Positions 163 to 16,997 of a stretch of 64,000 nt of DNA are shown piece by piece. Numbering within the stretch: position 1 is the stretch's first letter; the number at the start of each line of letters is the position of its first letter. The DNA comes from Actinotalea alkalitolerans. GTDB lineage: Bacteria; Actinomycetota; Actinomycetes; Actinomycetales; Cellulomonadaceae. A program made the translations under genes and the position numbers. The stretch spans positions 248,001 to 312,000 of the forward strand of contig NZ_JAMBPP010000001.1 in assembly GCF_023369855.1 (NCBI RefSeq), written 5' to 3'. The notes beneath the pieces are model-generated. The model made no database searches, was not told the DNA's origin, and saw only the letters and a program-made list of their open reading frames with translations.

Positions 163-228
163 GAGGACGCACATCTGCACCCAGAACGCACTGGCGACCG
201 TGCGACCTCGCTGCGGATGTGCGACCTC
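163..228 (+). repeat. 66-bp nested palindromic intergenic repeat, copy 1
   Basis: First of six 66-bp copies in this window. The element begins GAGGACGCACATCTGCA and ends TGCGGATGTGCGACCTC. An inner hairpin CGCAC-TGGCGACC-GTGCG lies at its centre. The two 29-base arms pair at about 23 positions around an 8-base loop. It directly abuts a fragment that looks like a broken AbiEi/DUF559-type gene. Confidence 0.85.
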
Positions 229-334
229 ACGACAGGCAAGTGGGTGGTGTTCAGCGCGAGGGCTGGGTCCTTCCCGGGGTCTACGTCGTCCGGCAGCATG
301 GGCGGCATGCGCGTGCTGCGGAACATCAGGTCCT
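229..334 (+). pseudogene. remnant resembling the N-terminal region of an AbiEi/DUF559-type protein
   Basis: In one frame this stretch reads RQVGGVQREGWVLPGVYVVR followed by a segment ending VLDAV. This resembles the winged-helix opening of AbiEi-type antitoxin or DUF559 proteins, which have a GxWxRVxPGVY-like motif. There is no start codon with a ribosome binding site, and the frame runs into the glycosyltransferase fragment in a different frame. I read it as a degraded piece. The assignment rests on one short motif and is weak. Confidence 0.3.
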
Positions 335-856
335 CGACGCCGTGACGCGGTGCGCGTCCTGGCCACCACGCGCCAGGGGCCCGACGTCACGGCGGCCGGG
401 CTCGAGCACGTCGCCTACCGCCGTCCCCGGCCCTGGTCGGGCCAGCAGCCTCGACCGTCGACCCGCGCCGCGGTGGACTTCCTGGCGATGGTCGGCGACC
501 GCGCCTACGGCCGCGACCTGGCCGAGACGCTCGCCACCCGCCCCGCCGACGTCGTCATGGTCGACGCCATGATCCCGGCAGCATCCCTCGCCGCGGCCCG
601 TCTGGGCGTGCCGAACGCCGTGCTCATGCACACGTTCGCCCGGTTCTTCCTGTCCCCCGCGCTCGAGGCGGCGGGCCGGCTGCGCGGGTTCTCCCCGCGA
701 CGGGCGTGGGCTCGCGCGTCGGCGGTCCTGGTGGTGTCGGACGCCGAGCTCGACCCCGCGCACGGCACGGCGCGGGCGGCCTCGTTCGAGTGGACCGGCG
801 TCGCGGAGCAGCACCCTACGGCCCTGCCCCGCGAGAGCACCCCGAGGACGGGGTGA
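335..856 (+). pseudogene. internal fragment of a UGT/MGT-type glycosyltransferase
   Basis: The readable segment starts RRRDAVRVLATTRQG and continues through PADVVMVDAMIPAASLAAA and GVPNAVLMHTF. This is the N-terminal Rossmann half of macrolide/UDP-type glycosyltransferases, where a VxDxM..aaaxaAexLGvP pattern is typical. The first beta strand and start codon are missing, and the frame stops after about 170 residues. The whole C-terminal nucleotide-sugar-binding domain of the usual roughly 400-residue enzyme is therefore absent. The fragment sits between repeat copies 1 and 2. Confidence 0.6.
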
Positions 857-877
857 CCCGCCACCGCCCCCTCCGCC

Positions 878-943
878 CAGAACGCACATCTGCACCGAGG
901 ACGCACCGGCCATCGTGCGACGTCGCTGCAGATGTGCGACCTC
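878..943 (+). repeat. 66-bp nested palindromic intergenic repeat, copy 2
   Basis: Same layout and orientation as copy 1. The outer arms are CAGAACGCACATCTGCA and TGCAGATGTGCGACCTC, with an inner hairpin CGCAC-CGGCCATC-GTGCG. It lies between the glycosyltransferase fragment and the ABC exporter operon, about 85 bases upstream of the first exporter start codon. Confidence 0.85.
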
Positions 944-1027
944 GCGCGGGCCGACGGCGGACCTCAGGGTGATCTCAGGGTGGTAACCCATGGCGCCGGG
1001 CACCTCGGAGCCACCAGGATCGTCCTC

Positions 1028-1984
1028 ATGGTCACCAGCCAGACGGACAGCGCAGCGGTGCCGTCCGTCCAGGTCGAGGGGCTGACGCGCACCTTCGGAC
1101 CGGTCACCGCGCTCGCCGACCTCACCGTCGCGATGCCGCAGGGCGTCGTCGGGCTGGTCGGGGCCAACGGCGCCGGCAAGTCGACCCTGATCAAGATCCT
1201 GCTGGGCCTGCTGCCCGCCACCTCGGGACGCGCCGAGGTGCTCGGCCTGGACTGCGCGACCGACGGCCTGGAGATCCGCGGCCTCGTGGGCTACATGCCC
1301 GAGAGCGACTGCCTGCCGCCCGACGTCTCGGCCACCGAGCTCATCGTGCACCTGGCGCGCATGTCCGGGCTGCCGACGGCGGTCGCCCGCGAGCGCACCG
1401 CCGACACGCTGCGCCACGTCGGCCTGTACGAGGAGCGCTACCGGCCCATCGGCGGCTACTCCACCGGCATGAAGCAGCGGGTCAAGCTCGCCCAGGCGCT
1501 CGTGCACGACCCCCGGCTGGTGCTGCTCGACGAACCGACCAACGGTCTGGACCCGGCCGGACGCGACGAGATGCTCGCCCTGATCCAGCGGATCAGCACC
1601 GAGTTCTCGATCGCCGTGGTGGTGACCTCCCACCTCCTCGGCGAGCTCGAGCGCATCGCCGACCACGTCGTGGTCATCGAGAGCGGCGTGCTGCAGCGGT
1701 CGACCTCGACGGCGGACGCCACCGGGTACAGCGGCGTGCTGCTGGTCGAGGTCACCGACCGCGGGCCCGAGCTCGCCGCGCTGCTGCGGGCCGCCGGGGC
1801 GCAGGTGGTGGCGAGCGGCTCGGCGGACTCCTTCACCGTCGAGCTCGCCGACGAGAGCGTGCTCGACACGCTCCAGGCCGGCGCCGCCGACCTCGAGGTC
1901 GGGCTGGTGCGCATGCAGCGCCGCCGGCACCACCTCACCGAGATCTTCAGCGACCGGACGGAGGGCGAGCGTGCCCGCCACTGA
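1028..1984 (+). CDS. ABC transporter ATP-binding protein
   Basis: This 318-residue nucleotide-binding subunit has Walker A GANGAGKST, the signature YSTGMKQRVKLAQAL and Walker B LVLLDEPTNGLDP, followed by the H-loop in TSHLLGEL. The spacing matches ATPases of ABC-2 exporters, and a C-terminal domain of about 90 residues follows the core. I chose the ATG that opens MVTSQTD; longer readings would start inside the upstream 66-bp repeat. The next gene overlaps its end by 14 bases. Genes one to four form two ATPase/permease pairs and probably assemble one heteromeric exporter; the substrate cannot be told from sequence. Confidence 0.9.
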   Translation: MVTSQTDSAAVPSVQVEGLTRTFGPVTALADLTVAMPQGVVGLVGANGAGKSTLIKILLGLLPATSGRAEVLGLDCATDGLEIRGLVGYMPESDCLPPDVSATELIVHLARMSGLPTAVARERTADTLRHVGLYEERYRPIGGYSTGMKQRVKLAQALVHDPRLVLLDEPTNGLDPAGRDEMLALIQRISTEFSIAVVVTSHLLGELERIADHVVVIESGVLQRSTSTADATGYSGVLLVEVTDRGPELAALLRAAGAQVVASGSADSFTVELADESVLDTLQAGAADLEVGLVRMQRRRHHLTEIFSDRTEGERARH

Positions 1985-2897
1985 ACCCGTCGCCACGCCC
2001 GGGCCTGCCGCAGCCGGACCGGGCGACGACGTCATCCACGACATCGGCTTCCGCCACTACGACGGGCCCCGCCTGGGCCGCGCCTGGGTGGTGCGCTCCC
2101 TCCTGGTCGAGACGGTGCGCGGGTGCTTCGGCCTGGGCCGACCCGCCCGGTCCAAGGTCATGCCCTGGTCGCTGATCGGCATCCTCCTGATCCCGCCGCT
2201 GATCATCGCGCTGTCGATCCTGCTGATCGGAGGGGACGAGCTGCCCGTCACCTACACCCAGTACCCCAACGCGCTGCAGCTCGTCGTGTCCCTCTTCGTC
2301 GCGGGCGCCGCGCCGTACTGCGTGTCCCGGGACCTGCGCCACGGCGTCATGCCGCTGTACCTGTCCCGGCCGATGATGCGCACCGACTACGTGCTCGCCA
2401 AGTTCGCCGGCCTGGCCCTCGCGGTGCTCGGCGTGCTGGCCCTGGCCCAGACCCTGCTGCTCATCGGCGCGCTGCTGGCCAAGCTCCCGGTCGGGGCCCA
2501 GCTCGTCGGGTGGGCGTCGGGCCTGCTCGTCTCGGTGGTGCTGGCCGTCCTGCTCAGTGCGATCACCCTGGTCGTGGCGGCGTTCACACCGCGGCGCGGG
2601 TTCGGCGTCGCCGCGATCATCACGATCCTCGTGGTGGTGAGCGGGGTGGCCGAGATGCTCACCGCGGTCGCGCAGGACCGTGGGCTCACCACGGCAGCGG
2701 CGTACCTGCCCGCTCTGGACCCGTTCAACCTCGTCGACGGGATCGCGGTGCGGCTGCTCGGCGCCGAGTCCGCCCGTGGTCATGACGTCCCACCCGGTGT
2801 GCTCGGTGGCCTCACCTTCCTCGTGGTCACCGCTGCCGTCGTCGCGGGCTGCCTCGCCCTGCTGATCCGCCGCTACCGGAAGGTGGGTGTGGTGTGA
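1971..2897 (+). CDS. ABC-2 type transporter permease
   Basis: This 308-residue integral membrane protein has a hydrophilic N-terminal stretch containing GFRHYDGPRLGRAW, a motif common in ABC-2 permeases. About six hydrophobic helices follow, including WSLIGILLIPPLIIALSILL and a long helix near residue 145. It starts with GTG inside the end of the upstream ATPase gene, indicating translational coupling, and its stop overlaps the next GTG start in a GTGA arrangement. It likely forms the membrane channel of the exporter together with the fourth gene. Confidence 0.85.
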   Translation: MPATEPVATPGPAAAGPGDDVIHDIGFRHYDGPRLGRAWVVRSLLVETVRGCFGLGRPARSKVMPWSLIGILLIPPLIIALSILLIGGDELPVTYTQYPNALQLVVSLFVAGAAPYCVSRDLRHGVMPLYLSRPMMRTDYVLAKFAGLALAVLGVLALAQTLLLIGALLAKLPVGAQLVGWASGLLVSVVLAVLLSAITLVVAAFTPRRGFGVAAIITILVVVSGVAEMLTAVAQDRGLTTAAAYLPALDPFNLVDGIAVRLLGAESARGHDVPPGVLGGLTFLVVTAAVVAGCLALLIRRYRKVGVV

Positions 2898-3805
2898 GCA
2901 CCCTCGTCCTGGACGGCGTCTCGCGCTGGTACGGCAACGTGGTCGCCGCCAACGACGTGACGATGACCGTCGGCCCCGGGATCACCGGCCTGCTCGGCCC
3001 GAACGGCGCCGGCAAGTCCACGCTCATCGCGATGATGGGCGGGTTCCTCGCGCCCTCGGCCGGCACGGTGACCCTCGACGGCACCGCGGTGTGGCGCCAC
3101 CCCGACATCTACCGCGCGATCGGCCTCGTCCCCGAGACCGAGGCGATGTACGACATGGTCACCGGCTGGCAGTTCGTGGTCGCCAACGCCCGGCTGCACG
3201 GGCTGCCCGACCCCGCCGCGGCGGCCCGCCGGGCACTCGAGACGGTCGAGATGATGGACGCCAAGGACCGCGAGATCGCGACCTACTCCAAGGGCATGAA
3301 GCAGCGGGTCAAGATGGCCACCGCCCTGGTGCACGACCCGTCCGTGCTCCTGCTCGACGAGCCGTTCAACGGGATGGACCCCCGCCAGCGCCTGCACCTC
3401 ATGGACCTGCTGCGCCGGCTCGGGCAGGAGGGCCGGACCGTGCTGTTCAGCAGCCACATCCTCGAGGAGGTCGAGGAGATCGCCGGCACCATCGAGGTGC
3501 TCGTGGCGGGCCGGCACGCGGCGTCGGGCGACTTCCGCCGGATCCGGCGGCTGATGACCGAGCGACCGCACCAGTACACGATCGCCTCGAGCGACGACCG
3601 GCGGCTGGCTGCGGCGATCGTCGCCGACGGCGCCGCCGACACCGTCGACCTGAGCGGTGGGAGCCTGGCCGTCCGGGCGCCCGACGTCGGCAGGTTCGTC
3701 CACGCGCTGCCCCGGCTCGCCCGGGACAACGGGGTGCGGCTGCTCGAGGTCTCCCCGGCCGACGAGTCCCTCGAGAGCGTCTTCGCCTACCTGGTGGCCC
3801 GATGA
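2894..3805 (+). CDS. ABC transporter ATP-binding protein
   Basis: This is the second nucleotide-binding subunit of the operon, 303 residues. It has Walker A GPNGAGKST, the signature YSKGMKQRVKMATAL, Walker B VLLLDEPFNGMDP and the H-loop SSHILEEVEEI. It starts at a GTG that overlaps the preceding stop and ends in an ATGA overlap with the next gene. The GMKQRVK signature is shared with the first ATPase, so the two are likely paralogues that work as a heterodimer. No regulator lies in the operon itself. Confidence 0.9.
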   Translation: MSTLVLDGVSRWYGNVVAANDVTMTVGPGITGLLGPNGAGKSTLIAMMGGFLAPSAGTVTLDGTAVWRHPDIYRAIGLVPETEAMYDMVTGWQFVVANARLHGLPDPAAAARRALETVEMMDAKDREIATYSKGMKQRVKMATALVHDPSVLLLDEPFNGMDPRQRLHLMDLLRRLGQEGRTVLFSSHILEEVEEIAGTIEVLVAGRHAASGDFRRIRRLMTERPHQYTIASSDDRRLAAAIVADGAADTVDLSGGSLAVRAPDVGRFVHALPRLARDNGVRLLEVSPADESLESVFAYLVAR

Positions 3806-4530
3806 ACGCCGTCGTGATGCAGCTGACGCTGCGAGGCCTGCTCGGGCGACGTCGGGCGCTGCTGCTGCTCGTGCTCCCGGCGTTGCTGCTCGTGCTCGCG
3901 GGCATCGTCCGCTGGGCCTCGGGGGCCGACGTGTTCGCCACCGTGGGCCTGACCGAGAACTTCGCGTTCGGCACCCTGCTGCCGCTCATGTGCCTGCTCA
4001 TCGGCACCGGGGTGATCGGTTCGGAGATCGACGACGGGTCGATCGTCTACCTGCTCGCCAAGCCGCTGCCACGCCGCACGATCATCCTGTCCAAGCTCGC
4101 CGTCGCCTGGGGCGCTGCGTTCGTGTTCGCGGTGCTCCCGCTCGTGGCGGCGGTCGAGATCGCCGGGGACGACGGCGGTCGGCTCGGCCTGGCGTACGGG
4201 GTCGCCGCGACGCTCGCCGCCCTGACCTACACCTCGCTCTTCGTCGCGCTGTCCGTGGTGACGCGCAACGCGGTGATCATCGGGCTGCTCTACGCGCTGC
4301 TCTGGGAGACCGTGCTGGGTGGCTACGTCCCCGGCATCCGCAACGTCAGCGTGCGGCAGTGGGCACTGGCGACCGCCGAGTCGATCCTGGGTGACTACGC
4401 CTACGTGTGGGGCGTGCTGTCCGCCGTCGGCCAGACCGCAGCCCTCGGCCTGCTGGCGGCGACGACCGTCGGTGCCGTGGTCCTGGCCGTGCGTCGCCTG
4501 GAGACCCTGCGGCTCACGGCGACCGACTGA
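3802..4530 (+). CDS. ABC-2 type transporter permease
   Basis: This 242-residue membrane protein has a short N-terminal amphipathic stretch and about six predicted helices, typical of NosY-like ABC-2 permeases. The GVIGSEIDDGSIVYLLAKPL segment is the conserved cytoplasmic loop of that family. Its ATG overlaps the stop of the second ATPase, and it is the last gene of the operon. A 66-bp repeat begins ten bases after its stop, between it and the convergent HxlR gene. Confidence 0.85.
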   Translation: MNAVVMQLTLRGLLGRRRALLLLVLPALLLVLAGIVRWASGADVFATVGLTENFAFGTLLPLMCLLIGTGVIGSEIDDGSIVYLLAKPLPRRTIILSKLAVAWGAAFVFAVLPLVAAVEIAGDDGGRLGLAYGVAATLAALTYTSLFVALSVVTRNAVIIGLLYALLWETVLGGYVPGIRNVSVRQWALATAESILGDYAYVWGVLSAVGQTAALGLLAATTVGAVVLAVRRLETLRLTATD

Positions 4531-4540
4531 GGACCCGGCC

Positions 4541-4606
4541 CCGGTCGCACATCTGCTGCGAGGACGCACTGGTGATCGTGCGATCTCGCTGCGGGTGTGC
4601 GATCTC
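4541..4606 (+). repeat. 66-bp nested palindromic intergenic repeat, copy 3
   Basis: This copy has outer sequences GGTCGCACATCTGC and GCGGGTGTGCGATCTC around the inner hairpin CGCAC-TGGTGATC-GTGCG. It fills almost all of the gap between two convergent genes, a position where it could end transcription from both sides. No T-rich tail follows, so ordinary intrinsic termination is not supported. Confidence 0.85.
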
Positions 4607-4623
4607 GCGAGGGTCGGCAGCGC

Positions 4624-5316
4624 TCACCCGTCGCGCGAGGGGCCCTCGAGCGACGTCGCGTCGAGCAGCGCGCGCACCGCGTCGACGTCGCCCGACACGT
4701 GCACCTCCGGGAGCCGCTCGAGGGCGACGCCGCCGATCACGCACGCCTTCCAGTCGGCGGTCGAGGCCCGGACCTCGGCGTGTGCCACGACGGCCTCGGG
4801 CGATCTTCCGACCTCGGTGGCGCGCTCGGACACCCGGGCCAGGTAGGTCACCGGCTGGGCGTTCTCGTGCCGCGAGTCCGTCAGACGGAGCACGACCCGT
4901 CGCTCGTCGGCGCACCCGGGGACCGGCCGCGCGTGCGCACGCATCGCAAGGACCACCGTGTCGGGGCTCATGCCCGCCTCGCGTGGCAGGGCCGGTGAGG
5001 CCACCGCCCATCGGGACAGCGCGGTGTTGACCGCCTCGAGCGCATGGCCCCACTCGGTGAGCTCGTACACGTCGACGCGGCCCGGTGCCGGAAGCCGGCG
5101 TCGGCGGGCGATCCCGTAGCGCTCCAGGTCGTGCAGGCGCTGTGTCAGGACGGCGGGCCCGATCCCGATCACGTCCCGCTGGATGTCGGAGAACCGCTTG
5201 GGGCCCAGCAGCAGCTCCCTCACGACGATCATCGTCCAGCGCTCGCCGACGAGGTCGAGGGCGTGGGCGGCTGCGCAGCCGTCGTCGTACGACCCGTACG
5301 ACCGTCGAGGGGCCAT
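4624..5316 (-). CDS. HxlR-family transcriptional regulator with C-terminal SCP2-like domain
   Basis: Residues 1-110 form the HxlR winged helix: a conserved Cys region near DDGCAAAHALDLVGERWTM, then LLGPKRFSDIQRDVIGI and the recognition-helix segment LTQRLHDLERYGI. Residues 115-230 form an extra domain resembling the SCP2 sterol-carrier fold often fused to actinobacterial HxlR proteins. The gene is divergent from two mycothiol-dependent isomerase-like genes. A nested palindrome between them is the obvious operator, so it probably controls both itself and that pair. The inducer is unknown. Confidence 0.85.
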   Translation of the reverse strand: MAPRRSYGSYDDGCAAAHALDLVGERWTMIVVRELLLGPKRFSDIQRDVIGIGPAVLTQRLHDLERYGIARRRRLPAPGRVDVYELTEWGHALEAVNTALSRWAVASPALPREAGMSPDTVVLAMRAHARPVPGCADERRVVLRLTDSRHENAQPVTYLARVSERATEVGRSPEAVVAHAEVRASTADWKACVIGGVALERLPEVHVSGDVDAVRALLDATSLEGPSRDG

Positions 5317-5327
5317 TGACAGATCGT

Positions 5328-5365
5328 ACTACTGATGCCGTAGTTTTCACTACGAAATCAGTAGT
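5328..5365. promoter_or_regulatory. nested palindromic operator in the HxlR divergent promoter
   Basis: An outer perfect inverted repeat ACTACTGAT/ATCAGTAGT encloses an inner one, CGTAGT/ACTACG. The element is AT-rich in a 73% G+C background and lies in the 81-base gap between the HxlR gene and its divergent neighbour. Both arms carry the ACTAC core typical of HxlR/MarR-type sites. I infer that the HxlR protein binds here as one or two dimers. Confidence 0.7.
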
Positions 5366-5397
5366 GAACGACGTCGTCCGACCGAGAGAGAGCCGGC

Positions 5398-6069
5398 ATG
5401 CGCACCTCCGCGGCAGAGATCTGGCACACCGTCCACGACGAGAGACGTCGTCTGCTCGCAGACCTCTCCGGGGCGCGACCCGAGCAGTGGCGCACACCGT
5501 CGCTCTGCCCCGGATGGGATGTCCACGACGTCCTGGCTCACCTGGTCGACACGGCGAGAACCGGTCGACTGACCTTCGTCCGTGAGCTGCTGAGCGCCCG
5601 GATGGACTTCGACCGCGCGAACGCCCGCGGTGTCACCCGGGAGCGGCGGGCGGACCCGCTCGACACCCTCGCCGCGCTCACCCGGGTCGCCGACCTCACC
5701 CGGACACCGCCTGCCGCCCTCGCCACCCGCCTGGTGGAGGCCATCGTGCACGGCGAGGACATCCGCCGACCCCTGGGGATCACCGGGTCCTACCCGGACG
5801 ACGCGGTCGCACAGGCCCTGACGCACCAGCTCAAGACCCCGGTCTCCTTCGGCGGGGGCCGCGAGCGCGCGGCAGGCCTCCAGCTGGTCGACCGCCGGAC
5901 GGGTGTCACCTGGGGCACCGGGGACGCCGTCGAGGCCGAGTCCCTCGACCTGCTCCTCGCGGTCTCCGGGCGCCCCGTGGACCGCGAGCGGCTCCGCGGG
6001 AGCGCAGCAGACCGGCTCGCCGACGCCGCGCAGGGCCGTGCGGGCGCTCACGAGGAGGGGGAGCGATGA
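5398..6069 (+). CDS. maleylpyruvate isomerase-family (DinB-like) mycothiol-dependent enzyme
   Basis: This 223-residue protein has the N-terminal DinB/mycothiol-dependent helix bundle. The segment PSLCPGWDVHDVLAHLVDTA contains the metal-ligand His of the family, and VEAIVHGEDIRRPLG contains the second conserved His. Members use mycothiol in isomerisation or detoxification reactions; the substrate is not predictable here. The ATG has an AGAGAG ribosome binding site and lies just downstream of the HxlR operator. Its stop overlaps the start of a paralogue. Confidence 0.8.
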   Translation: MRTSAAEIWHTVHDERRRLLADLSGARPEQWRTPSLCPGWDVHDVLAHLVDTARTGRLTFVRELLSARMDFDRANARGVTRERRADPLDTLAALTRVADLTRTPPAALATRLVEAIVHGEDIRRPLGITGSYPDDAVAQALTHQLKTPVSFGGGRERAAGLQLVDRRTGVTWGTGDAVEAESLDLLLAVSGRPVDRERLRGSAADRLADAAQGRAGAHEEGER

Positions 6070-6725
6070 GCCCGCGCGCCGACAGGAGGAAGCAGTCCGA
6101 CGCCGACCTGTGGGTCCTCGCCCATGCCGAACGGGCCGCACTTGCCGAGGACCTGTCGACCCTCAGCGCCGAGCAGTGGCGGCACAGCACCCTGTGCGGG
6201 GAGTGGGACGTCGAAGAGGTCGTGGCCCACCTCGTCGCGGCAGCCAGCCTGGACCAGTGGCAGTGGCTGCGCAGCATGCTCGGTGCGCGGTTCCGCCCTG
6301 AGGTGCACAACCGGCGACGCCTGGCCGAGCACCGCGGCCGGACGCCCGCCGAGACCCTGGACCGCTTCCACGCCGTCGTCGAGAGCACCACGGCACCCTC
6401 GAGCCACACCCCGGCCTACCTGGGCGAGGTCGTCGTGCACGCCCAGGACATCCGCCGTCCGCTGGGGCTGACCCGCTCACCCGGGGTCGAGGCACTGACC
6501 GCCGTGGCGGACTTCTTCGCCCGACGCGACTTCACCGTGAACAGCCGCACGCACGTCGCCGGCCTGGAGCTACGCGCGGACGACGGCCCGTTCGCGGCAG
6601 GCTCGGGCGCACCGGTCACCGGCTCGAGCCTTGCCCTGGTCATGGCCATGGCCGGCCGCGAGGCGTACCTCGACGAGCTCGACGGACCAGGCGTCTCCGT
6701 CCTCCGCAGCCGCCTGACGCCCTAG
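6066..6725 (+). CDS. maleylpyruvate isomerase-family (DinB-like) mycothiol-dependent enzyme, paralogue
   Basis: This 219-residue paralogue of the preceding gene overlaps it in an ATGA arrangement, so the two are co-translated. Family motifs are STLCGEWDVEEVVAHLVAAA and GEVVVHAQDIRRPLG, which hold the conserved His residues in the same places as its neighbour. The tandem pair under one HxlR regulator may act as a heterodimer or on related substrates. Repeat copy 4 follows 12 bases after the stop. Confidence 0.8.
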   Translation: MSPRADRRKQSDADLWVLAHAERAALAEDLSTLSAEQWRHSTLCGEWDVEEVVAHLVAAASLDQWQWLRSMLGARFRPEVHNRRRLAEHRGRTPAETLDRFHAVVESTTAPSSHTPAYLGEVVVHAQDIRRPLGLTRSPGVEALTAVADFFARRDFTVNSRTHVAGLELRADDGPFAAGSGAPVTGSSLALVMAMAGREAYLDELDGPGVSVLRSRLTP

Positions 6726-6737
6726 GCCGACTCCGCC

Positions 6738-6803
6738 GAGGTCGCACATCCGCATCCAAGACGCACCGGTGACCGTACGACCTCGATGCGGATGTGCGAC
6801 CTC
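6738..6803 (+). repeat. 66-bp nested palindromic intergenic repeat, copy 4 (perfect outer stem)
   Basis: The outer arms form a perfect 19-bp inverted repeat, GAGGTCGCACATCCGCATC against GATGCGGATGTGCGACCTC. Between them is the inner pair CGCAC-CGGTGACC-GTACG. It lies in the gap between convergent genes. The remaining roughly 75 bases up to the CHAD gene hold nothing recognisable. Confidence 0.9.
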
Positions 6804-6877
6804 GCGACGCGCACTGGTTGGGCATCACTCACGACGACGCGGGTCCGCTCGGCAGGAGGCGGCGACGGCGCCCGCGT

Positions 6878-8449: not shown

Positions 8450-8496
8450 GCCTGCAGTCTCGTCCGAGAGTGGCCCGCCCGCTCCTCGTGCGCCGC

Positions 8497-9810: not shown

Positions 9811-9895
9811 GACAGCTCCCCGAAGGCTTCGACGCCAGCGCTGCAGAACACCATCGTCCCACCCGAGCCCAGGGCGGCTCTCCCGGCCCGCCGCC

Positions 9896-9961
9896 GAGGA
9901 CGCACATCCACCGTGAGAACGCCCAGGCGATCGTGCGATCTCGCTGCAGACGTGCGACCTC
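9896..9961 (+). repeat. 66-bp nested palindromic intergenic repeat, copy 5
   Basis: The most diverged copy: outer ends GAGGACGCACATC and GACGTGCGACCTC, inner CGCCC-AGGCGATC-GTGCG. It lies in the 346-base gap between divergent genes, so here it flanks promoters rather than gene ends. Apart from this repeat, and a weak inverted repeat AACGG/CCGTT just upstream of the acetyltransferase gene, I see nothing in that gap. Confidence 0.8.
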
Positions 9962-10156
9962 GCCCTGGCCGGTCGGTGGGTGAGGGCGTCGCTGAGGGAT
10001 CCGCCGACCGGACCAGGCACTCCGCACGCAGTCCGCCGTCGGTGCTGGTGATCGGCACTCCACCCGCTCTGGCCGGCGTCACGTGGGACGAACGGTCCTT
10101 GCCCGGTGGTGGGCACCGTTCCGATGCTGGGAGTACGGGAACCGAGGGAGGCACCG

Positions 10157-10828
10157 ATGACGCCGTCGACACCTGCAACCCGCCCGACCGGGCCTCAGCA
10201 CGACCGTCTGCCGGTGGAGGTGCGACGTCTCGCCCGCGAAGACCTCCCGGTGGCGGCGCGGATGTTCGCCGTCGCCTTCGACAGCGACCCGATGTCCCGC
10301 CTCATGCTCCCGGACGACGACCAGCGTCGCCGGTTCCTCGAGCGTGGGGGACGCCGCCAGATCGAGCGTGCGATCCCCCACCGGCACGTCTTCGGCGCCT
10401 ACCACGACGGGACGCTGTGCGGGATCGCGGTCTGGCTGCCGCCGGGCGTGGCCGTCCGGTCGGCCGAGGCGATCCCAGCGTCCGCCGCCCTCCGAGCGCT
10501 GCGGGTGGGGCTGCGTCACCCGCGTCTCACGGTCCGCTACCTGCGGGCGAGGGCGGCCGCCATGAAGGCGCTCCACCAGTCCGGCGCCTGGCACCTGGCG
10601 TTCCTGGCGACCGACCCCCGCGTCCAGGGGCGCGGGGTGGCCCGCCGGCTGCTCGACCGGGTGCTGCGTCGCGCCGACGAGGACGCCGTCGGCGTGTGGC
10701 TCGAGACGTACGACCCCGCGAACCCGCCGATCTACGAGCGGTTCGACTTCCGGACCACCACGGAGCTCACCGGCAGTGGGGTGCTGCCGCGCCTGTGGCT
10801 CATGGAACGCCCGCCGGCGGACGGCTGA
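10157..10828 (+). CDS. GNAT-family N-acetyltransferase
   Basis: This is a 223-residue acetyl-CoA-dependent acetyltransferase. After a short hydrophilic N-terminus, the GNAT fold shows LAREDLPVAARMFAVAF, then the acetyl-CoA-binding motif A LAFLATDPRVQGRGVARRLL (Q/RxxGxG/A), then VGVWLETYDPANPPIYERF. The closest general group is the actinobacterial GNATs with an N-terminal basic segment; the substrate is unknown. The ATG chosen has GAGGGAGG six bases upstream; a GTG 51 bases earlier would add 17 residues. Confidence 0.85.
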   Translation: MTPSTPATRPTGPQHDRLPVEVRRLAREDLPVAARMFAVAFDSDPMSRLMLPDDDQRRRFLERGGRRQIERAIPHRHVFGAYHDGTLCGIAVWLPPGVAVRSAEAIPASAALRALRVGLRHPRLTVRYLRARAAAMKALHQSGAWHLAFLATDPRVQGRGVARRLLDRVLRRADEDAVGVWLETYDPANPPIYERFDFRTTTELTGSGVLPRLWLMERPPADG

Positions 10829-10881
10829 CCGCCGGTCTCGGGGGACGTGGGACGCGGGACGTTCAGAGCGGACGGGCCAGC

Positions 10882-10911
10882 TGGACTTTGTTGAGAATGA
10901 TTCCTAGTATC
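10882..10911 (+). promoter_or_regulatory. promoter overlapping a candidate Zur/Fur-type box, probably leaderless
   Basis: A -35-like TGGACT and a -10 TAGTAT are separated by 17 bases. The spacer holds TTGAGAATGATTCCTAGTA, which matches the actinobacterial Zur-type core TGAxAATGAT in its left half. The GTG start of the surface protein lies seven bases after the -10, so the transcript probably begins at the start codon. Repression by a zinc-bound regulator sitting on the -10 is the simplest reading. Confidence 0.55.
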
Positions 10912-10916
10912 GTCCC

Positions 10917-13268
10917 GTGCTCGAGACGTCCCCTTTGTCCGCTCCGCTCCCCTCGTCGTCAATCTCCCCGCCACATGCCCGGATCGACACCACCCGCCGG
11001 CGACGCCGCGCCCTCGCCGGGGCCGCAGCACTGCTGCTCGCCCTGGGCGTGGCGACCGAGGCCATGGCCCTGTCACACGCGGCGCCGACGGGTACCGGCC
11101 CCACCGCTGCCGCGCGACAGGTGCTCGCCACCGAGCACACCGACGCCATCTCGGTCTTCCTCGACAAGGGCGCCCTGAGCCTCGCCACCAAGGCGGACCT
11201 CGGGTCGAGTCGTGGAGTCCGGCTCGACCCCGACGCTGTCGTCTTCCACGTCACCGACTCCGCGCTGCGAGCCGCGCCGAGCGGCAGCGCCTTCACCTTC
11301 CTCGGGGTGGCGCCGGGCAGCCCGGTGCACGTGATCCCGCAGGCCTACACGTCCGGCGTGCTCTGGGCCGGGTGGAACACCGAGAGCGTTCCGCCCTCAG
11401 CGGTCGACGGACCGGTCACCCTGACCTGGGAGCAGGTCAGCGGACCGGGCGCGGTCGAGGTGTACGAGAGCGGCCTCGACGGCCCGCGTCGTCTCTTCAG
11501 CAGCCGCGACAGCACGCTGCGGAGCCTGGCGGTGCCCGCGAACACCCACGCGCACGCCAGCTGGGTGTTCACCGCCCCCGGCATCTACAGGGTCACTGTC
11601 AGCGCCTCGGCCCGAACCCCCCAGGGCGCGGCACTGTCAGCACCGCCACGCACCTACGTCTTCGCGGTCGGAGGGACGTCCCTCCCCGCACTCACGACCT
11701 CCGTCTCCCTCGACGCGCAGGCAGCCGACGAGGGACGGGTCAGCATGAGTGCCCAGGTCCGCTGGGCAGGGGCGGAGCAGGCGACGGCGCCCGAAGGTCG
11801 GGTCGAGCTGCTGCACGTCGGCGGAGGCGTCGAGACGCCGCTGGGAGACACCCCGGCATCGGCGGGGCGCGCCCATCTGACGGCGACCGTCCCGGGCGGC
11901 GGGCAGCTCGTCGCGAGGTTCGTCCCCAACGATCCCCAGCTCGTGGCGGGCGCGACCTCCCCCGGGGTGACCAACCCGCTCACGGCCACGGCACCGCAGG
12001 TCACCGGGCTGCGCCAGCAGTACCAGCCCGGCGAGCAGGTCGAGCTGGCACTCGAAGGTCACGACTCCCTGGCCCCCCACGGTGCACGGTGGGCCGTGCA
12101 CCGCGTCGGGGCAGGCGAACCCGAGCAGCACACCGGCTGGACCCTGTCGATGCTCGCCACCGACGACCTCGACGGCGCCCGTGTGGTCGTCGACCTCCAG
12201 GACGCCGACGGCGGGCCCCTGGGCCAGACCCCTCCGGTCGTGATCCGTGTCGCGTCCTCACCGGCTCCGTCCCCCGCACCGTCGCCCGCGCCGCTGTCTC
12301 CGTCACCGACCTCGACGGATCCGCCATCCTCCGTGGAGAGCACGCCCTCGCCGAGCCCCCTCCAGGCTCCGCAGGGCGTCGACGCGGACGCAGCACCGGC
12401 GTGCCTGCCGACGCCGGTCACCGAGACGGTCGACGCGGGCAACGTCGACATCGTCACCGACGGGCACCTCGACCTGGGGCCGACCGTCCGCGACGGCCGC
12501 CTGGTCGCGGCGGTCAAGGACGACCGGTCCGGGACACCCGTGTGGCGATCACCCGAAGAGCTGGTGCTGCACCTCGACGGGACCTCCAGGACACCCGTCC
12601 CCACCGGCGGGGACTTCGCGTTCCTCGGGACGGGACACGTCTGGACGATCCCCCTCGCGCAACGTTCGGGCATCCCCTGGCTCGGGTGGAACACCCAGCA
12701 CCCGACGATCGCGGGACGGACAGCGGGGCCCATCACGATGACGCTCGAGTCCGTCGACGGTCCCGGAGACCTCGCCGTCTACTCCCTGGACACCTTCGGA
12801 GGCGTCGGGGAGCGGTACTTCGGGAGCGTCGAGGGCTTCCCCCGTTCGACCGCCGTCCCCGTCGGTGCGGCAGGCGCGCACGTCCACGGGATCTGGGCCT
12901 TCACCGCCGAGGGGGCCTACCGGGTCACCATCGGCTTCTCGGGCACGGTGGACGGCGCCGCGCTGACGGGCAGTGCGGTCCTCGCCTTCGCGGTCGGCGA
13001 CGTCGACCCCACCACCGCCGTCCAGTCGACGACCGTGACCCGGTACGAGGGACGGACCGCGGACGGGCAGGAGTGCGAGCTCGACCCGGCGCTGACCGGC
13101 CGCGCCCTGGCGCAGACCGGCCTCGACGACCAGTCGCTGACCGACCTCGGCATCGTCAGCGGCGTCCTGCTGGCCGCTGGAACAGCCCTCGCAGGGCTGT
13201 CCGCCGTGGGGCGCGAGCCGCGGCGCCGCAGGTCGAACCCCACCACCTCCCCCACCACCACAGGTTGA
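10917..13268 (+). CDS. sortase-anchored surface protein with two choice-of-anchor M domains
   Basis: This is a 783-residue exported protein. An Arg-rich n-region (TTRRRRRALAG) and hydrophobic core near residues 30-50 form the signal. Two copies of the actinobacterial surface-anchored (choice-of-anchor M) domain lie at about 60-245 and 505-690, each with a VxxGHLDLGP-like opening and an IYRVT or AYRVTI ending. A linker of about 45 residues made of Pro/Ser repeats separates them. The C-terminus has the sortase motif LAQTG at 731-735, a hydrophobic helix and a basic tail, matching class E sortase substrates (LAxTG). Such proteins accompany zinc ABC transporters in other actinobacteria, which agrees with the candidate Zur box. 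Confidence 0.82.
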   Translation: MLETSPLSAPLPSSSISPPHARIDTTRRRRRALAGAAALLLALGVATEAMALSHAAPTGTGPTAAARQVLATEHTDAISVFLDKGALSLATKADLGSSRGVRLDPDAVVFHVTDSALRAAPSGSAFTFLGVAPGSPVHVIPQAYTSGVLWAGWNTESVPPSAVDGPVTLTWEQVSGPGAVEVYESGLDGPRRLFSSRDSTLRSLAVPANTHAHASWVFTAPGIYRVTVSASARTPQGAALSAPPRTYVFAVGGTSLPALTTSVSLDAQAADEGRVSMSAQVRWAGAEQATAPEGRVELLHVGGGVETPLGDTPASAGRAHLTATVPGGGQLVARFVPNDPQLVAGATSPGVTNPLTATAPQVTGLRQQYQPGEQVELALEGHDSLAPHGARWAVHRVGAGEPEQHTGWTLSMLATDDLDGARVVVDLQDADGGPLGQTPPVVIRVASSPAPSPAPSPAPLSPSPTSTDPPSSVESTPSPSPLQAPQGVDADAAPACLPTPVTETVDAGNVDIVTDGHLDLGPTVRDGRLVAAVKDDRSGTPVWRSPEELVLHLDGTSRTPVPTGGDFAFLGTGHVWTIPLAQRSGIPWLGWNTQHPTIAGRTAGPITMTLESVDGPGDLAVYSLDTFGGVGERYFGSVEGFPRSTAVPVGAAGAHVHGIWAFTAEGAYRVTIGFSGTVDGAALTGSAVLAFAVGDVDPTTAVQSTTVTRYEGRTADGQECELDPALTGRALAQTGLDDQSLTDLGIVSGVLLAAGTALAGLSAVGREPRRRRSNPTTSPTTTG

Positions 13269-13297
13269 TCACGCACCACCACACCGAGAGGAACAAC

Positions 13298-14818
13298 ATG
13301 GCACTGACGACACTACGGAGGCGCGCAGGCGTCTCCGGCGCCCTCGCGGCTCTTGCCACGATGGCGCTCACCCTTCCGGCGCAGGCGGTACCGGTCGAGG
13401 AGAGCGTCTACGCGGGCAGGACGGTCATGTCGACCGGCCACCTCGACCTGCTGTACGTCGACGTGATCGACGGCCAGAACCGCTCCATCACGCACACCGA
13501 GCTGGGCAACCTCGATCCGGCCGAGCTGGTGCTGCACGCCAAGCCCTCGGTCGCCTCGCGGACGGTCAGCGCGACCGTCGCCACCCTTCCGGGCATGAAG
13601 GCCCAGGGCGAGACCTACTACCTGCTCCCGCAGACCAGCCAGCTCGGCCAGCTGTTCGTGGGCTTCGGCTACTCCTCGGCCCTGCCGAGCGGCACCGCGA
13701 TCACCCACCAGATCACCGACTTCGAGGGCGCTGGTGAGCTCATCGCCTGGCAGAACTCCGAGGACGGCCCGCTGCCCTTCTTCGGGTCGCACGAGTCCGC
13801 CCCGGCCGCCTTCACGAGCGAGGCGAACCACGAGCACGTCAACTGGGGCTTCACCGAGCTCGGCGAGTACCTCATCACGGTGACGTCGTCGGTGACCGTC
13901 CCGGGCGGGGAGGCCGAGACCCTCGCCCCGGCGACCTACACCGTGCTGGTCGGTGAGGACCTGCCGGCCGCTGACCCGGGCACCGATCCCGGTGACCCGG
14001 TCGACCCGGTCGACCCGGTCGACCCCGTCGACCCGACGGTGCTGAGCATCACGGGTCTCGGGCACCACTACCACGCCGGTGGTATCGCCACCCTGACCGC
14101 GGTCCAGGAGCCCGACACGGGCATCGACCACTACCACTGGTTCACCCGCGCGGACGCCTCCGCGGAGTGGTCGGTCGTGCCCGGTGCCGAGGCGGGCACC
14201 TACAGCTTCGTGGTGCGGACGGCTGACCATGGCTCTCAGGTCAAGGTCGTCCTGTACGACCACGACCACAGCGTGCTCACCGAGTCCGACCCGGTGACGA
14301 TCGCCGTCGACGACCACGGCAACGACCCGGTCAACGGTCCGACCATCACTGCGACGCTCCCCGCTGTCGACGGTGCGCTCACACTGAGCGTCGCCCCAGA
14401 GAACCGTGAGGTCGACCTGGGTGAGCTGACCCTCACCCCCGCCGCCGACCGCTTCGCCGCTGAGGGAGCGCTCAAGCCCATCACGGTGACCGACACGCGG
14501 GCGGGCGACCCGGGCTGGTCGGCCTCGGGCCGGGTCCGCGCCTTCACCACCATCGACGGGTCCACCCTCACGGGTGCGCACCTCGGGTGGGCCCCCAGCG
14601 TCCTCGAGGCGAGCGAGGGGCAGTCCGTCACCGCCGGACCCGCAGTCGCGGGAACGCTGAGCGGCGGCCCGGGCGTGGGTGCCTGGAGCGTGCTCGGTCA
14701 GGCGCCGGAGGGTGCCGGGCGCGGCACCACTCAGCTCGGTGCAGAGCTCCTGCTCGAGGCCCCGACCACGCTCGAGCCCGGTACCTACACCGGGATGCTC
14801 ATCCTGACCGTCATCTGA
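13298..14818 (+). CDS. secreted choice-of-anchor M domain protein with His-rich linker domain
   Basis: This 506-residue protein has a signal peptide ending near LPAQAVPVEE and a choice-of-anchor M domain (about 28-230) opening GRTVMSTGHLDLLYVDVID. A DPV repeat linker follows, then an Ig-like segment rich in His (GLGHHYHAGG, DHYHWF, YDHDHSV) and a C-terminal beta domain. No sortase motif or membrane helix ends it, so it may be released or bound to its anchored neighbour. The ATG has GAGAGGAA upstream, and the gene lies 29 bases behind the anchored paralogue. The His clusters suggest metal binding. Confidence 0.8.
   Translation: MALTTLRRRAGVSGALAALATMALTLPAQAVPVEESVYAGRTVMSTGHLDLLYVDVIDGQNRSITHTELGNLDPAELVLHAKPSVASRTVSATVATLPGMKAQGETYYLLPQTSQLGQLFVGFGYSSALPSGTAITHQITDFEGAGELIAWQNSEDGPLPFFGSHESAPAAFTSEANHEHVNWGFTELGEYLITVTSSVTVPGGEAETLAPATYTVLVGEDLPAADPGTDPGDPVDPVDPVDPVDPTVLSITGLGHHYHAGGIATLTAVQEPDTGIDHYHWFTRADASAEWSVVPGAEAGTYSFVVRTADHGSQVKVVLYDHDHSVLTESDPVTIAVDDHGNDPVNGPTITATLPAVDGALTLSVAPENREVDLGELTLTPAADRFAAEGALKPITVTDTRAGDPGWSASGRVRAFTTIDGSTLTGAHLGWAPSVLEASEGQSVTAGPAVAGTLSGGPGVGAWSVLGQAPEGAGRGTTQLGAELLLEAPTTLEPGTYTGMLILTVI
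13994..14029 (+). repeat. in-frame 9-bp tandem repeat encoding (DPV)n
   Basis: Four head-to-tail units of GACCCGGTC (the last GACCCCGTC) encode Asp-Pro-Val repeats between the anchor M domain and the His-rich domain. It acts as an extended spacer and is a likely site of length variation. Confidence 0.85.
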
Positions 14819-14827
14819 CCCGCTCTG

Positions 14828-14862
14828 CCGTGGCCCCCCGGATCACCTCCGGGGGGCCACGG
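14828..14862 (+). terminator. strong hairpin after the surface-protein genes
   Basis: A perfect 15-bp stem, CCGTGGCCCCCCGGA against TCCGGGGGGCCACGG, closes on the five-base loop TCACC. It starts ten bases after the stop of the secreted protein. There is no T-run, as is usual in very high G+C actinobacteria. It may reduce expression of the following membrane-protein gene relative to the first two, or stabilise the upstream mRNA end. Confidence 0.7.
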
Positions 14863-14881
14863 TGCGCCCGAGGAGACCCCC

Positions 14882-16108
14882 ATGCCCGGACACCGTTCAC
14901 CCCTCACCCGGCACCGGTGGCGCAGCATGCTGCGCACCGCGGCAGCAGAGCTGACGACCCGCACCGGCCTCGTCCTGCTGTCGGCCGCCCTCGCTGCGGG
15001 GATCGGTGCGACCGAGCCACCCCCTGATGCCGCGCCCGAACCGGCGCCGACCTCGTGGTCGGTCGCCCCCGCGACCAGCGAGGGACCGGACGGCCGGGCC
15101 CGGTTCGAGTACATCGTGGAGCCGGGCCACCAGTACGACGACCACGTGGCGATCCGGAACGTGGGCACCGAGCCCCTCGAGCTCGAGGTGTACGCGGCGG
15201 ACGCCGCGAGCGGTGAGGACGGGAGCTTCACGGTCCTCGCGTCCGACGAGCCCAGCAGCGCAGTGGGCGGCTGGCTCACCCTGCCTGTCCAGAACCTGGA
15301 GATCGCACCCCGCGACACCGCCCTGGTCCCGTTCAGCATGATCATCCCGTCGGAGGTCGAGCCGGGGGACTACGCCGGAGGCATCGTCGCGGTGGTGCAC
15401 ACCCAGGGCACCGGCGAGACCTCTGGGGTCGACGTGCAGACCAGGGTCGGTACCCGCGTGTACGTGCGGGTCGCCGGCCCGGTCGAACCGGGACTGACGG
15501 TGGAGTCGGTCACCGCCTCGTACGCGCACGTCGTCAACCCCGCTCGACCCGGGAGCTCCGTGGTGAGCTACACCGTGGTGAACACCGGGAACGTGCGTCT
15601 GGACGCCGTGCCCACCGTCGAGGTGAAGGCTCCCTTCGGCCTCTGGTCGCACGTCGTCGAGGCAGACCCTGTGGTCGACCTGTTCCCCGGGATGGCCGTC
15701 TCCCGCACGATCGAGCTGCCCGTGGCACCCCTCGGGCCCATGACCGTGGACGTCGTCGTGCAGCCCGTCGCCTCAGCGGGCCAGGAGATCACCGTGCCGC
15801 AGGTGCGGGCCGGCACGGTGATCTGGGCTGTGCCCTGGGCCGCCCTGGTGGTCCTCGTGCTCCTCGCGCTCGTCGTCTGGTCGGCGGTGCGGGCGCGGCG
15901 ACGGGTGCGCGAGCGTACCGATGGGCCCACCAGGGCAGGAAGCACGACGCCGGCACCCGAGCGGGCTCCCACGACTGACCGCCCAGCGCCGGCCCACCCG
16001 CGCGAGCCCGACGACGCAGCGACCCCGCGAGGCGGGACGGCCGACGAGCGCCCCGAGGTGCTCCCCACCGGGCGGGCCACCCCCGCGGCAGGTCGGGACC
16101 CCCGGTGA
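14882..16108 (+). CDS. DUF916-like membrane-anchored extracellular protein
   Basis: This is a 408-residue protein with an N-terminal signal-like helix. A DUF916/WxL-binding type beta-sandwich (about 55-200) contains RFEYIVEPGHQYDDHVAIRN and PSEVEPGDYAGGIVAVVHTQ. A second beta domain follows (about 200-315), then a transmembrane helix (WAALVVLVLLALVVWSAV) and a basic, low-complexity cytoplasmic tail. This architecture parallels the DUF916 proteins that attach surface proteins to the envelope. Its place behind the two anchor M proteins suggests it belongs to the same surface assembly. Confidence 0.78.
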   Translation: MPGHRSPLTRHRWRSMLRTAAAELTTRTGLVLLSAALAAGIGATEPPPDAAPEPAPTSWSVAPATSEGPDGRARFEYIVEPGHQYDDHVAIRNVGTEPLELEVYAADAASGEDGSFTVLASDEPSSAVGGWLTLPVQNLEIAPRDTALVPFSMIIPSEVEPGDYAGGIVAVVHTQGTGETSGVDVQTRVGTRVYVRVAGPVEPGLTVESVTASYAHVVNPARPGSSVVSYTVVNTGNVRLDAVPTVEVKAPFGLWSHVVEADPVVDLFPGMAVSRTIELPVAPLGPMTVDVVVQPVASAGQEITVPQVRAGTVIWAVPWAALVVLVLLALVVWSAVRARRRVRERTDGPTRAGSTTPAPERAPTTDRPAPAHPREPDDAATPRGGTADERPEVLPTGRATPAAGRDPR

Positions 16109-16905
16109 CTCGGAGCCGGTCGGACGCGGCGCGCTCGACGGGGCCGACGAGCAACGGTCGGCTCGACCCGGAGCTCGCGGTCGGCTGGGTCGCTTCCTGG
16201 GACCGGCAGCAGGAGGCGTACGCGGTCGGCCGCGAGGAGCGCTTCGCGGTCGTCGCCGAGGTGGTCGCGACGGTCGTCGCCGCACGGCCGGCGCCGGTCG
16301 TGGTCGACCTCGGCTGCGGCCCCGGCTCGCTCGCGCTCCGCGTGGCGCGCCGCATCCCCCGCGCCCGGGTGATCGGCATCGACACCGACCCGCTGCTGCT
16401 CGCGCTCGGGCGGGCGGCGTCGCCAGAGGTCGACCTGGTCGAGGGGGTCGTGGCGGCCCCCGGGTGGACCGGTGCTCTCCCGCGCCCGCTCGACGCCGTC
16501 GTGTCCTCGACGGCCCTGCACTACCTCCGGCCCGACGACCTGCTCGGTGTGTACACCGACCTGGCGGCCCTCGTGCGACCCGGCGGTGTGCTCGTCAACG
16601 CCGACCACCTCCCCGCCGACGACGCCGTCCTGGAGACCCTCGCGCGCGACGTGTCACGCCGGCCCAGGTACGACGCGGAGCCGCCGCTGGACGCGGCCAC
16701 GGCCTGGAGCTCCTGGTGGGACGCGGTCGCAGCGGAGCCGCTCCTTCAGGATCTTCTCGACGAGCGCCGTCGTCGGCCGCAGGTCACCGATGATCACCCC
16801 CTGTCCGCAGCAACCCACTCGCGCCTGCTCCGCGAGAGCGGCTTCCGCCACTGCGGGGTGGTCTGGCAGGACGGCCCCAGCACGGTCCTCGTCGCCGTGC
16901 GGTAG
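16105..16905 (+). CDS. class I SAM-dependent methyltransferase
   Basis: This 266-residue enzyme has the SAM-binding motif VVVDLGCGPGSLALRVA, the acidic end of strand two in VIGIDTDPLLL, and post-motif residues in STALHYLRPDDL. Its GTG start overlaps the previous stop (GTGA), so it is translated with the DUF916-like gene, although a functional link is not obvious. The N-terminal helix with VGWVASWDRQQEAY is typical of small-molecule methyltransferases of this group. The substrate is unknown. Confidence 0.85.
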   Translation: MTRSRSDAARSTGPTSNGRLDPELAVGWVASWDRQQEAYAVGREERFAVVAEVVATVVAARPAPVVVDLGCGPGSLALRVARRIPRARVIGIDTDPLLLALGRAASPEVDLVEGVVAAPGWTGALPRPLDAVVSSTALHYLRPDDLLGVYTDLAALVRPGGVLVNADHLPADDAVLETLARDVSRRPRYDAEPPLDAATAWSSWWDAVAAEPLLQDLLDERRRRPQVTDDHPLSAATHSRLLRESGFRHCGVVWQDGPSTVLVAVR

Positions 16906-16931
16906 CACGTGGTCTCTCGCCGCTCGCAGCC

Positions 16932-16997
16932 GAGGACGCACACGTGCAGCGAGGACGCACAGGCGTCCGTGCGTCCTCGCTGGAGATGTGCGACCTC
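16932..16997 (+). repeat. 66-bp nested palindromic intergenic repeat, copy 6 (perfect inner stem)
   Basis: In this copy the inner stem is perfect over ten pairs, GAGGACGCAC against GTGCGTCCTC, around the loop AGGCGTCC. The outer arms are GAGGACGCAC and GTGCGACCTC. It lies between the convergent methyltransferase and His-rich protein genes. No further copy is found in the remaining 47 kb. Confidence 0.88.

Follow-up and report, generated by a model that had tools for sequence, protein, structure and literature searches.

Dispersed 66-bp intergenic palindromes of Actinotalea as probable gene-free copies of a mobile element in which palindromes enclose an AbiEi-like/Vsr-like gene

Miniature inverted-repeat transposable elements (MITEs) are short, gene-free sequences of fixed length with an inverted-repeat architecture, and the EDxHD homing endonucleases are relatives of Vsr. 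Extragenic palindromes with a dedicated enzyme are described in the literature on REP (repetitive extragenic palindromic) sequences, REPINs and RAYT transposases (PMC2817692, PMC3116915, PMC3733652); REPs have lengths of 20–40 bp and are tagged by GTAG or CGTC (PMC3733652), and RAYT genes are less conserved than their neighbours and in four cases end within repeat clusters (PMC2817692). Two other described systems concern DNA-binding proteins. The binding site of AbiEi consists of two 23-bp inverted repeats separated by 3 bp, and the promoter of Rv2827c contains four repeats to which Rv2827c itself binds (PMC7319586); the EDxHD homing endonuclease I-Bth0305I has a restriction-like active site and occupies a target of nearly 60 bp as a dimer (PMC3943268). 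Here we analyse a family of 66-bp intergenic palindromes, six of which lie in a 64-kb stretch of the Actinotalea alkalitolerans genome (contig NZ_JAMBPP010000001.1, positions 248,001 to 312,000; hereafter the window, meaning this whole stretch). With a probability of roughly two in three, we consider them to be the scattered, non-autonomous copies of a mobile element composed of palindrome, gene and palindrome, whose gene is AbiEi-like and Vsr-like.

A covariance model built from the six window copies, whose own scores are therefore not independent of it, found 19 places at E <1e-5 in the 4.37-Mb genome (G000 in our labels, in which L numbers denote fetched loci), all of 66 bp; three extra places at E 0.39 to 0.56 (48, 60 and 68 bp) were excluded from this count. 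A genome search of this kind had been proposed in an earlier note on this DNA, and the further copies were found independently by BLAST with one copy and by the model. The note had reported copies in the first 17 kb only, and this holds for the window, where the model finds no seventh copy (next-best place at E 0.17), but not for the genome, in which the copies cluster: 8 gaps among the 19 copies are shorter than 8 kb, against a mean of 0.61 and a maximum of 5 in 20,000 uniform simulations. In relatives, whose search the note had also suggested, the model gave matches in 16 of the 59 genomes searched, namely the own genome, 8 of the 18 other genomes from its genus and 7 from other genera, and some copies in other genera deviate in length (64, 65, 67, 69, 76 and 105 bp). 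Loci fetched from nine genomes hold 89 distinct places by the model, 87 of which read as 66 bp and were analysed, including two whose opposite-strand match is 64 or 68 bp; L065 (69 bp) and L106:4014 (52 bp) were excluded. In other genera, L036 and L045 (G038) and L038 and L046 (G036) contain related palindromes, which are 76 and 105 bp long. Several contigs stop within a few hundred bases of palindromes (the end of L050, the end of L048 and the start of L067), and the palindromes may break assemblies and so be undercounted.

The arms of the palindrome are themselves repetitive. The ten outermost arm bases recur 19 bases inward with a mean identity of 8.5 of 10, and at the other offsets from 8 to 27 the identity is at most 4.0 of 10. 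Each 66-mer carries four copies of a motif of about 10 bp near GAGNNCGNAC; one arm has two of them in direct and the other arm two in inverted orientation, and the consensus ends of the 66-mer are GAG...CTC. At variable bases within one element, 2.64 of 6 motif pairs match, against 0.96 after shuffling, and arm positions are paired in 84% as compared with 75% when shuffled, with 179 doubly changed cells against 65; both the motif-agreement and the covariation figures are inflated by the relatedness of the copies. These two signals support either matched motifs or structure without telling which, and the selection on structure that the earlier note had proposed as one alternative is not singled out by the covarying arms: the same signal is expected from related protein-binding motifs in inverted order.

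A gene for a protein of about 320 aa adjoins copies in four genomes (G000, G018, G006 and G014), and the four loci have no other called gene in common in the fetched stretches. Copies enclose it in G018, G006 and G014, and in G014 a single-frame gene (L110) and a two-frame gene (L099) are each flanked on both sides; in the own genome (L050), one copy is located 10 bp from the stop codon of the gene, and the contig stops 150 bp past the start of this gene. A partner gene with matching palindromic ends, for which the earlier note had recommended a search, is thus present, and it is AbiEi-like/Vsr-like by partial family matches. The RAYT-like transposase that the note had named as a candidate is absent: the Y1 family (PF01797) was found in 0 of the 10 genomes searched, and a control search detected it in 5 of 14 known genomes. 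Two 66-bp copies also enclose a kinase-like (weakly Bud32-like) gene (L048:3125-4210, at the end of G000:C11); this gene was dropped as a partner, its G018 relative having a copy on one side only.

Among 39 members at E <=0.1 (profile A3, made from 39 hand-chosen loci of the 80 described below), the partial matches of the partner protein were to AbiEi_4 in 27, MTES_1575 in 18, AbiEi_1 in 10 and DUF559 in 9, and PADLOC AbiEi models were matched by all 39 at E <=0.01. MTES_1575 is described as a Vsr-fold nuclease domain (PMC3710099) and a Caulobacter DUF559 protein is Vsr-like (PMC12907096). Twenty residues are invariant in 24 aligned homologues, including E213, D244, E255-x-D257-G, K261-Y262, E273 and R276 (L107 numbering). 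Against solved structures, the profile gave only weak matches, to ribosomal S20. Judged from its sequence, this uncharacterised protein is probably DNA-cutting. Of 296 genomes sampled throughout the phylum Actinomycetota, 78, including the own genome, had profile matches at E <=1e-15; in phage contigs, 23 pattern matches were obtained, none of which was confirmed as a relative.

Palindromes accompany this gene family in relatives as well, usually with other motifs. At 30 homologous loci, a long palindrome occurred within 450 bp in 24 and on both sides in 11; their motifs are mostly unlike that of the 66-mer, and some of these palindromes are also found by the 66-bp model. We next took 80 named loci, the best 80 of 183 relatives, which span Actinotalea, Cellulomonas, Promicromonospora, Isoptericola, Luteimicrobium, Oerskovia, Arthrobacter and others, and recorded palindromes with a score of at least 14: 47 loci have one on the left, 47 on the right, 37 on both sides and 57 on any side. 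Within 600 bp of the gene there are 97 palindromes in 95.7 kb and farther away 18 in 287 kb, a 16-fold contrast that mixes coding and intergenic DNA. The intergenic-only control is weaker, giving a palindrome in 81 of 142 regions adjoining the gene against 13 of 86 others (Fisher p 2e-10), or 2.2 against 0.9 palindromes per kb. The two palindromes that flank a given gene match each other: the own pair ranks best in 24 of the 37 both-side loci and among the top three in 35, with a p of 6e-29 that assumes independent loci, which related loci are not. From other taxonomic families we examined 28 loci (30 returned, minus the own locus and one Arthrobacter locus), 4 from the same order, 8 from the same class and 16 from other classes; 18 have a palindrome and 11 have one on both sides, most of these pairs being alike by eye, and 32 palindromes lie in 33.6 kb near the gene against 1 in 49.6 kb far from it. 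The loci of the 30-relative and 80-locus sets overlap, and their counts are not additive.

Dispersal is observed in two subfamilies with different motifs. In G014, where 26 of about 36 places were examined, 9 are similar to the palindromes beside one flanked gene and 15 to those beside the other gene, the 15 including its own two flanks; 2 are similar to neither. The Promicromonospora subfamily is dispersed in 6 genomes, each with 24 to 75 matches when both strands are counted. By eye, extra single motifs stand in tandem beside palindromes at L272, L281 and L273 (G024) of Promicromonospora, and their number varies between close relatives.

Whole units differ in presence and in orientation at one site. 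At a Cellulomonas site, the two flanks are only 18, 33, 47 and 50 bp apart in G192, G229, G208 and G228, against 1,243 bp in L170. Among the matches listed, both flanks are on one contig in at least 17 genomes, with spacings of 18–50 bp in 4, 248 bp in 1, 1.2–1.4 kb in 8 and 2.4–4.1 kb in 4; a gene match is listed inside for 2 of the eight 1.2–1.4 kb sites (G195 and G215), and six additional genomes, including that of L170 itself, match the whole filled stretch. In the empty site of G208, the left and right open frames end facing each other, 54 bp apart, as in convergent genes. In L170 compared with L181, the flank match is interrupted from 2341 to 3543, with palindromes at 2345-2420 and 3466-3537, and the gene is reversed relative to the flanks; in L181 the ends of the match are 13 and 75 bp outside its palindromes. 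The gene also runs in opposite directions between matching flanks in L235/L243 (Arthrobacter) and L217/L219, where the ends are within about 115 bp of the palindromes and one L235 side is inside the flank match, and it does so in L239/L219 as judged by one flank only. In-place inversion and independent reverse insertion look the same in such comparisons. The gene is less conserved than its flanks (75-77% against 85-88% in L170/L177; 73% against 82-92% in L201/L205). With a partner gene in hand, and with units present or absent and in both orientations at one site, the mobile REP-like element that the earlier note had offered as one possibility is favoured.

Several candidate insertion sites were abandoned. 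A solitary copy of G024 (L273) is missing in G061; it holds 24 codons of the 3' end of the gene, and beside it is a single motif that G061 retains. In outgroups, the flank matches are 36 bp apart in G060, 11 bp in G059 and 1,311 bp in G063, the last without a palindrome or gene match. With this pattern in the outgroups, and because the gene match extends weakly into DNA shared with G061, L273 is not counted as proof of copying by fresh insertion. A clean empty site for the G018 unit was sought in G004, in which the flanks are present but the gap holds other open frames; a stretch of about 1.9 kb in L147 (G004), whose open frames are TetR-like and monooxygenase-like by eye, stands in place of the palindrome–gene unit of L071 (G018). 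Comparison of the L069 cluster with five genomes gave no continuous left flank, the matches in G004 stopping near contig ends, and for L275 a clear G061 match was obtained for the right flank only.

We infer that the partner protein binds and cleaves DNA and causes the palindromes to spread. The gene-carrying form would be a unit of about 1.2 kb, and its product would join an AbiEi-like DNA-binding region to a Vsr/DUF559/MTES_1575-like nuclease region. The AbiEi-like part may bind the repeated motif, present twice per arm and four times per element, as is naturally suggested by the analogy with AbiEi on two inverted repeats and Rv2827c on four. The nuclease part would then nick or cut at the palindrome or at a target carrying a motif, and repair or rejoining would insert the palindrome, alone or together with the gene, at another intergenic position, mostly just behind a gene. 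Each gene lineage would have its own motif and would thereby spread its own palindromes, by cut-and-copy or by excision and insertion, and the data fit either route. A broader proposal, to which we lean only slightly, is that there is a class of elements throughout Actinomycetota in which the gene for a DNA-binding Vsr-like nuclease with its own palindromes seeds non-coding palindromes by cut-and-copy, a REP/RAYT lifestyle reached independently with an unrelated enzyme.

The six window copies are at 163..228 (23 of 29 positions paired; model E 6.3e-18), between genes; 878..943 (23 of 29; E 1e-16), upstream of an ABC-transporter ATPase gene; 4541..4606 (21 of 29; E 2.2e-16), flanked by the convergent genes of an ABC-2 permease and HxlR, whose ends are 10 and 17 bp away; 6738..6803 (25 of 29; E 1.5e-17), between convergent MDMPI_N and CYTH-CHAD genes; 9896..9961 (21 of 29; E 5.2e-16), between divergent genes; and 16932..16997 (25 of 29; E 2.6e-17), 26 bp past a methyltransferase-like gene. 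Their description in the earlier note proved accurate: they are imperfect 66-bp palindromes with 21–25 Watson–Crick pairs out of 29 and an 8-base loop, the loop consensus NGGYNWYC fits all six by eye, and all are intergenic according to a crude gene caller, the left neighbour of the copy at 163 having been checked separately. Mean column identity is 88%, and strong hairpins are predicted. The single orientation given in the note applies to the window, where all six score better on the + strand, but not to the genome, where 14 places do so and 5 are better on the − strand (on unordered contigs); this call is biased because a model trained on one strand favours that strand and the element is nearly symmetric. 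In the first 20 kb of the window, no copy matched an Rfam RNA family at E <=1, and the single match, far under its cut-off, is off the copies.

The placement of the copies bears on other explanations. With the same gene caller, 49 of the 87 copies lie in codirectional gaps, 23 in convergent and 10 in divergent ones, 4 are undetermined and 1 is inside a predicted gene. The copy is closer to the end of the upstream gene in 41 of the 49 codirectional gaps (p 2e-6), the excess of convergent over divergent gaps is a weak skew (p 0.035), and the median distances are 39 bp to the 3' ends of genes and 113 bp to their starts. Stem-loops that are retained downstream of genes because they end transcription in both directions or stabilise RNA, and that spread only by ordinary duplication, would account for this proximity, for the covarying arms and for the predicted hairpins. 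However, terminators need neither a common sequence of fixed length, such as 87 of the 89 places in nine genomes have, nor a matching pair round one gene family, and 10 copies are between divergent genes; we therefore regard this explanation as very unlikely. The same proximity to gene ends and the excess of convergent over divergent gaps speak against operators, that is, a solo AbiEi-type repressor whose binding sites are the palindromes and whose regulon is marked by the scattered copies. A four-motif palindrome does look like the two 23-bp inverted repeats of AbiEi and the four promoter repeats of Rv2827c, and 47 of the 80 genes have an upstream palindrome; but a downstream one is equally common, and units that are present or absent, and in both orientations at one site, are unexpected for a regulon, so that operators are improbable, if the least so of the alternatives. 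The protein might instead be a passenger, as cargo or immunity, in palindrome-ended units that another recombinase moves in trans. Its chemistry is a prediction from sequence, and the match of all 39 profile members to PADLOC AbiEi models would suit such a role; yet the same gene recurs between palindromes and its lineage tracks the motif, and the 10 genomes lack a Y1 transposase, other recombinases not having been searched for. We judge the passenger role to be slightly less probable than operators.

Against the preferred reading, that of dispersed copies of a palindrome–gene–palindrome element, several observations have to be weighed. All four motif copies are the same at variable bases in only 16 of the 87 copies, and measurements of the four-motif layout come from the 66-bp family only, the layout being recognized by eye elsewhere. 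The finder sees no palindrome at 23 of the 80 named loci, 10 of the 28 distant loci have none and some finds there are short (31-43 bp); other intergenic regions hold palindromes too (the 13 of 86 above), so that the link to the gene draws on the left–right match no less than on frequency. In G004, which contains copies, no homologue reaches E <=1e-10, and the sole homologue of G002 (42% identical) has flanks whose motif differs somewhat; such orphan copies need loss or transfer of the gene. No exact target duplication was found: the flanks of the empty Cellulomonas site are only 78-92% identical, too diverged to show one, and a 4-bp GCAC overlap occurs at one doubtful site. As the protein match of L273 continues weakly into DNA shared with G061, this copy may be the remnant of a decayed unit, part of which was lost from G061, and not a new copy. 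Finally, the nuclease reading comes from partial family matches, the protein of the own genome has no Pfam or NCBIfam match at E <=1, and the putative catalytic role of the conserved residues is our own reading of the alignment.

The preferred reading gives a common group of unexplained actinobacterial genes a testable role and accounts for a class of intergenic repeats for which no named family was found. If it is true, palindromic repeats served by an enzyme of their own evolved on more than one occasion and with different chemistry, and the AbiEi label, as well as defence-system calls based on it, may mark mobile elements; if the phylum-wide proposal is also true, many matches to AbiEi-antitoxin or DUF559 models would be mobility genes of this element.

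In the parts of the open-access literature consulted, we found no named family for the 66-bp repeats and no prior report that pairs palindromes with an AbiEi/Vsr-like gene; Arthrobacter repeats have been catalogued, in the available portion of that paper, without mention of RAYT or an endonuclease (PMC12306157). With type IV toxin–antitoxin systems of the AbiE type, the element shares an AbiEi-like region and repeated inverted sites, putative binding sites here, of comparable layout (PMC7319586), but it differs in its Vsr-like C-terminal region, in its single gene between palindromes, which are close enough on both sides to leave scant room for a second gene such as AbiEii, in its dispersed copies and in the presence or absence of units. 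EDxHD homing endonucleases, with a restriction-like active site and a long target, resemble it in so far as the partner protein is a putative Vsr-like nuclease on a 66-bp palindrome; here, however, no intron is seen, the ends are palindromic and there are many dispersed gene-free copies. Like MITEs, the 66-mers are short, gene-free, of fixed length and built as inverted repeats, but a whole copy is one palindrome, there is no clear target duplication, and the parent-like unit exists with a gene that is no transposase by family match.

The comparison with REP/RAYT is the closest. Both have extragenic palindromes, an enzyme gene between two cognate repeats, co-occurrence of gene and repeat, a gene less conserved than its neighbours and repeats that can cluster; the 3' end of the gene is beside a repeat in four reported RAYT cases and in one doubtful case here. 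Dispersed extragenic copies are many in both, although the 19 of the own genome are fewer than the >100 usual for REPs. On the other hand, the flanked gene is another one, with palindromes on both sides in 37 of 80 loci and matching pairs; the repeat is 66 bp with GAG...CTC ends and not 20–40 bp with GTAG or CGTC tags; each arm has two motif copies; copies number tens and not hundreds; and the protein belongs to another superfamily. We did not file the element as a REP/RAYT member because the defining Y1 transposase was sought and not found, and we set it apart because protein superfamily and repeat layout both differ. As far as genome anatomy tells, it appears to work like REP/RAYT, and an author who weighs lifestyle over enzyme would place it near that system.

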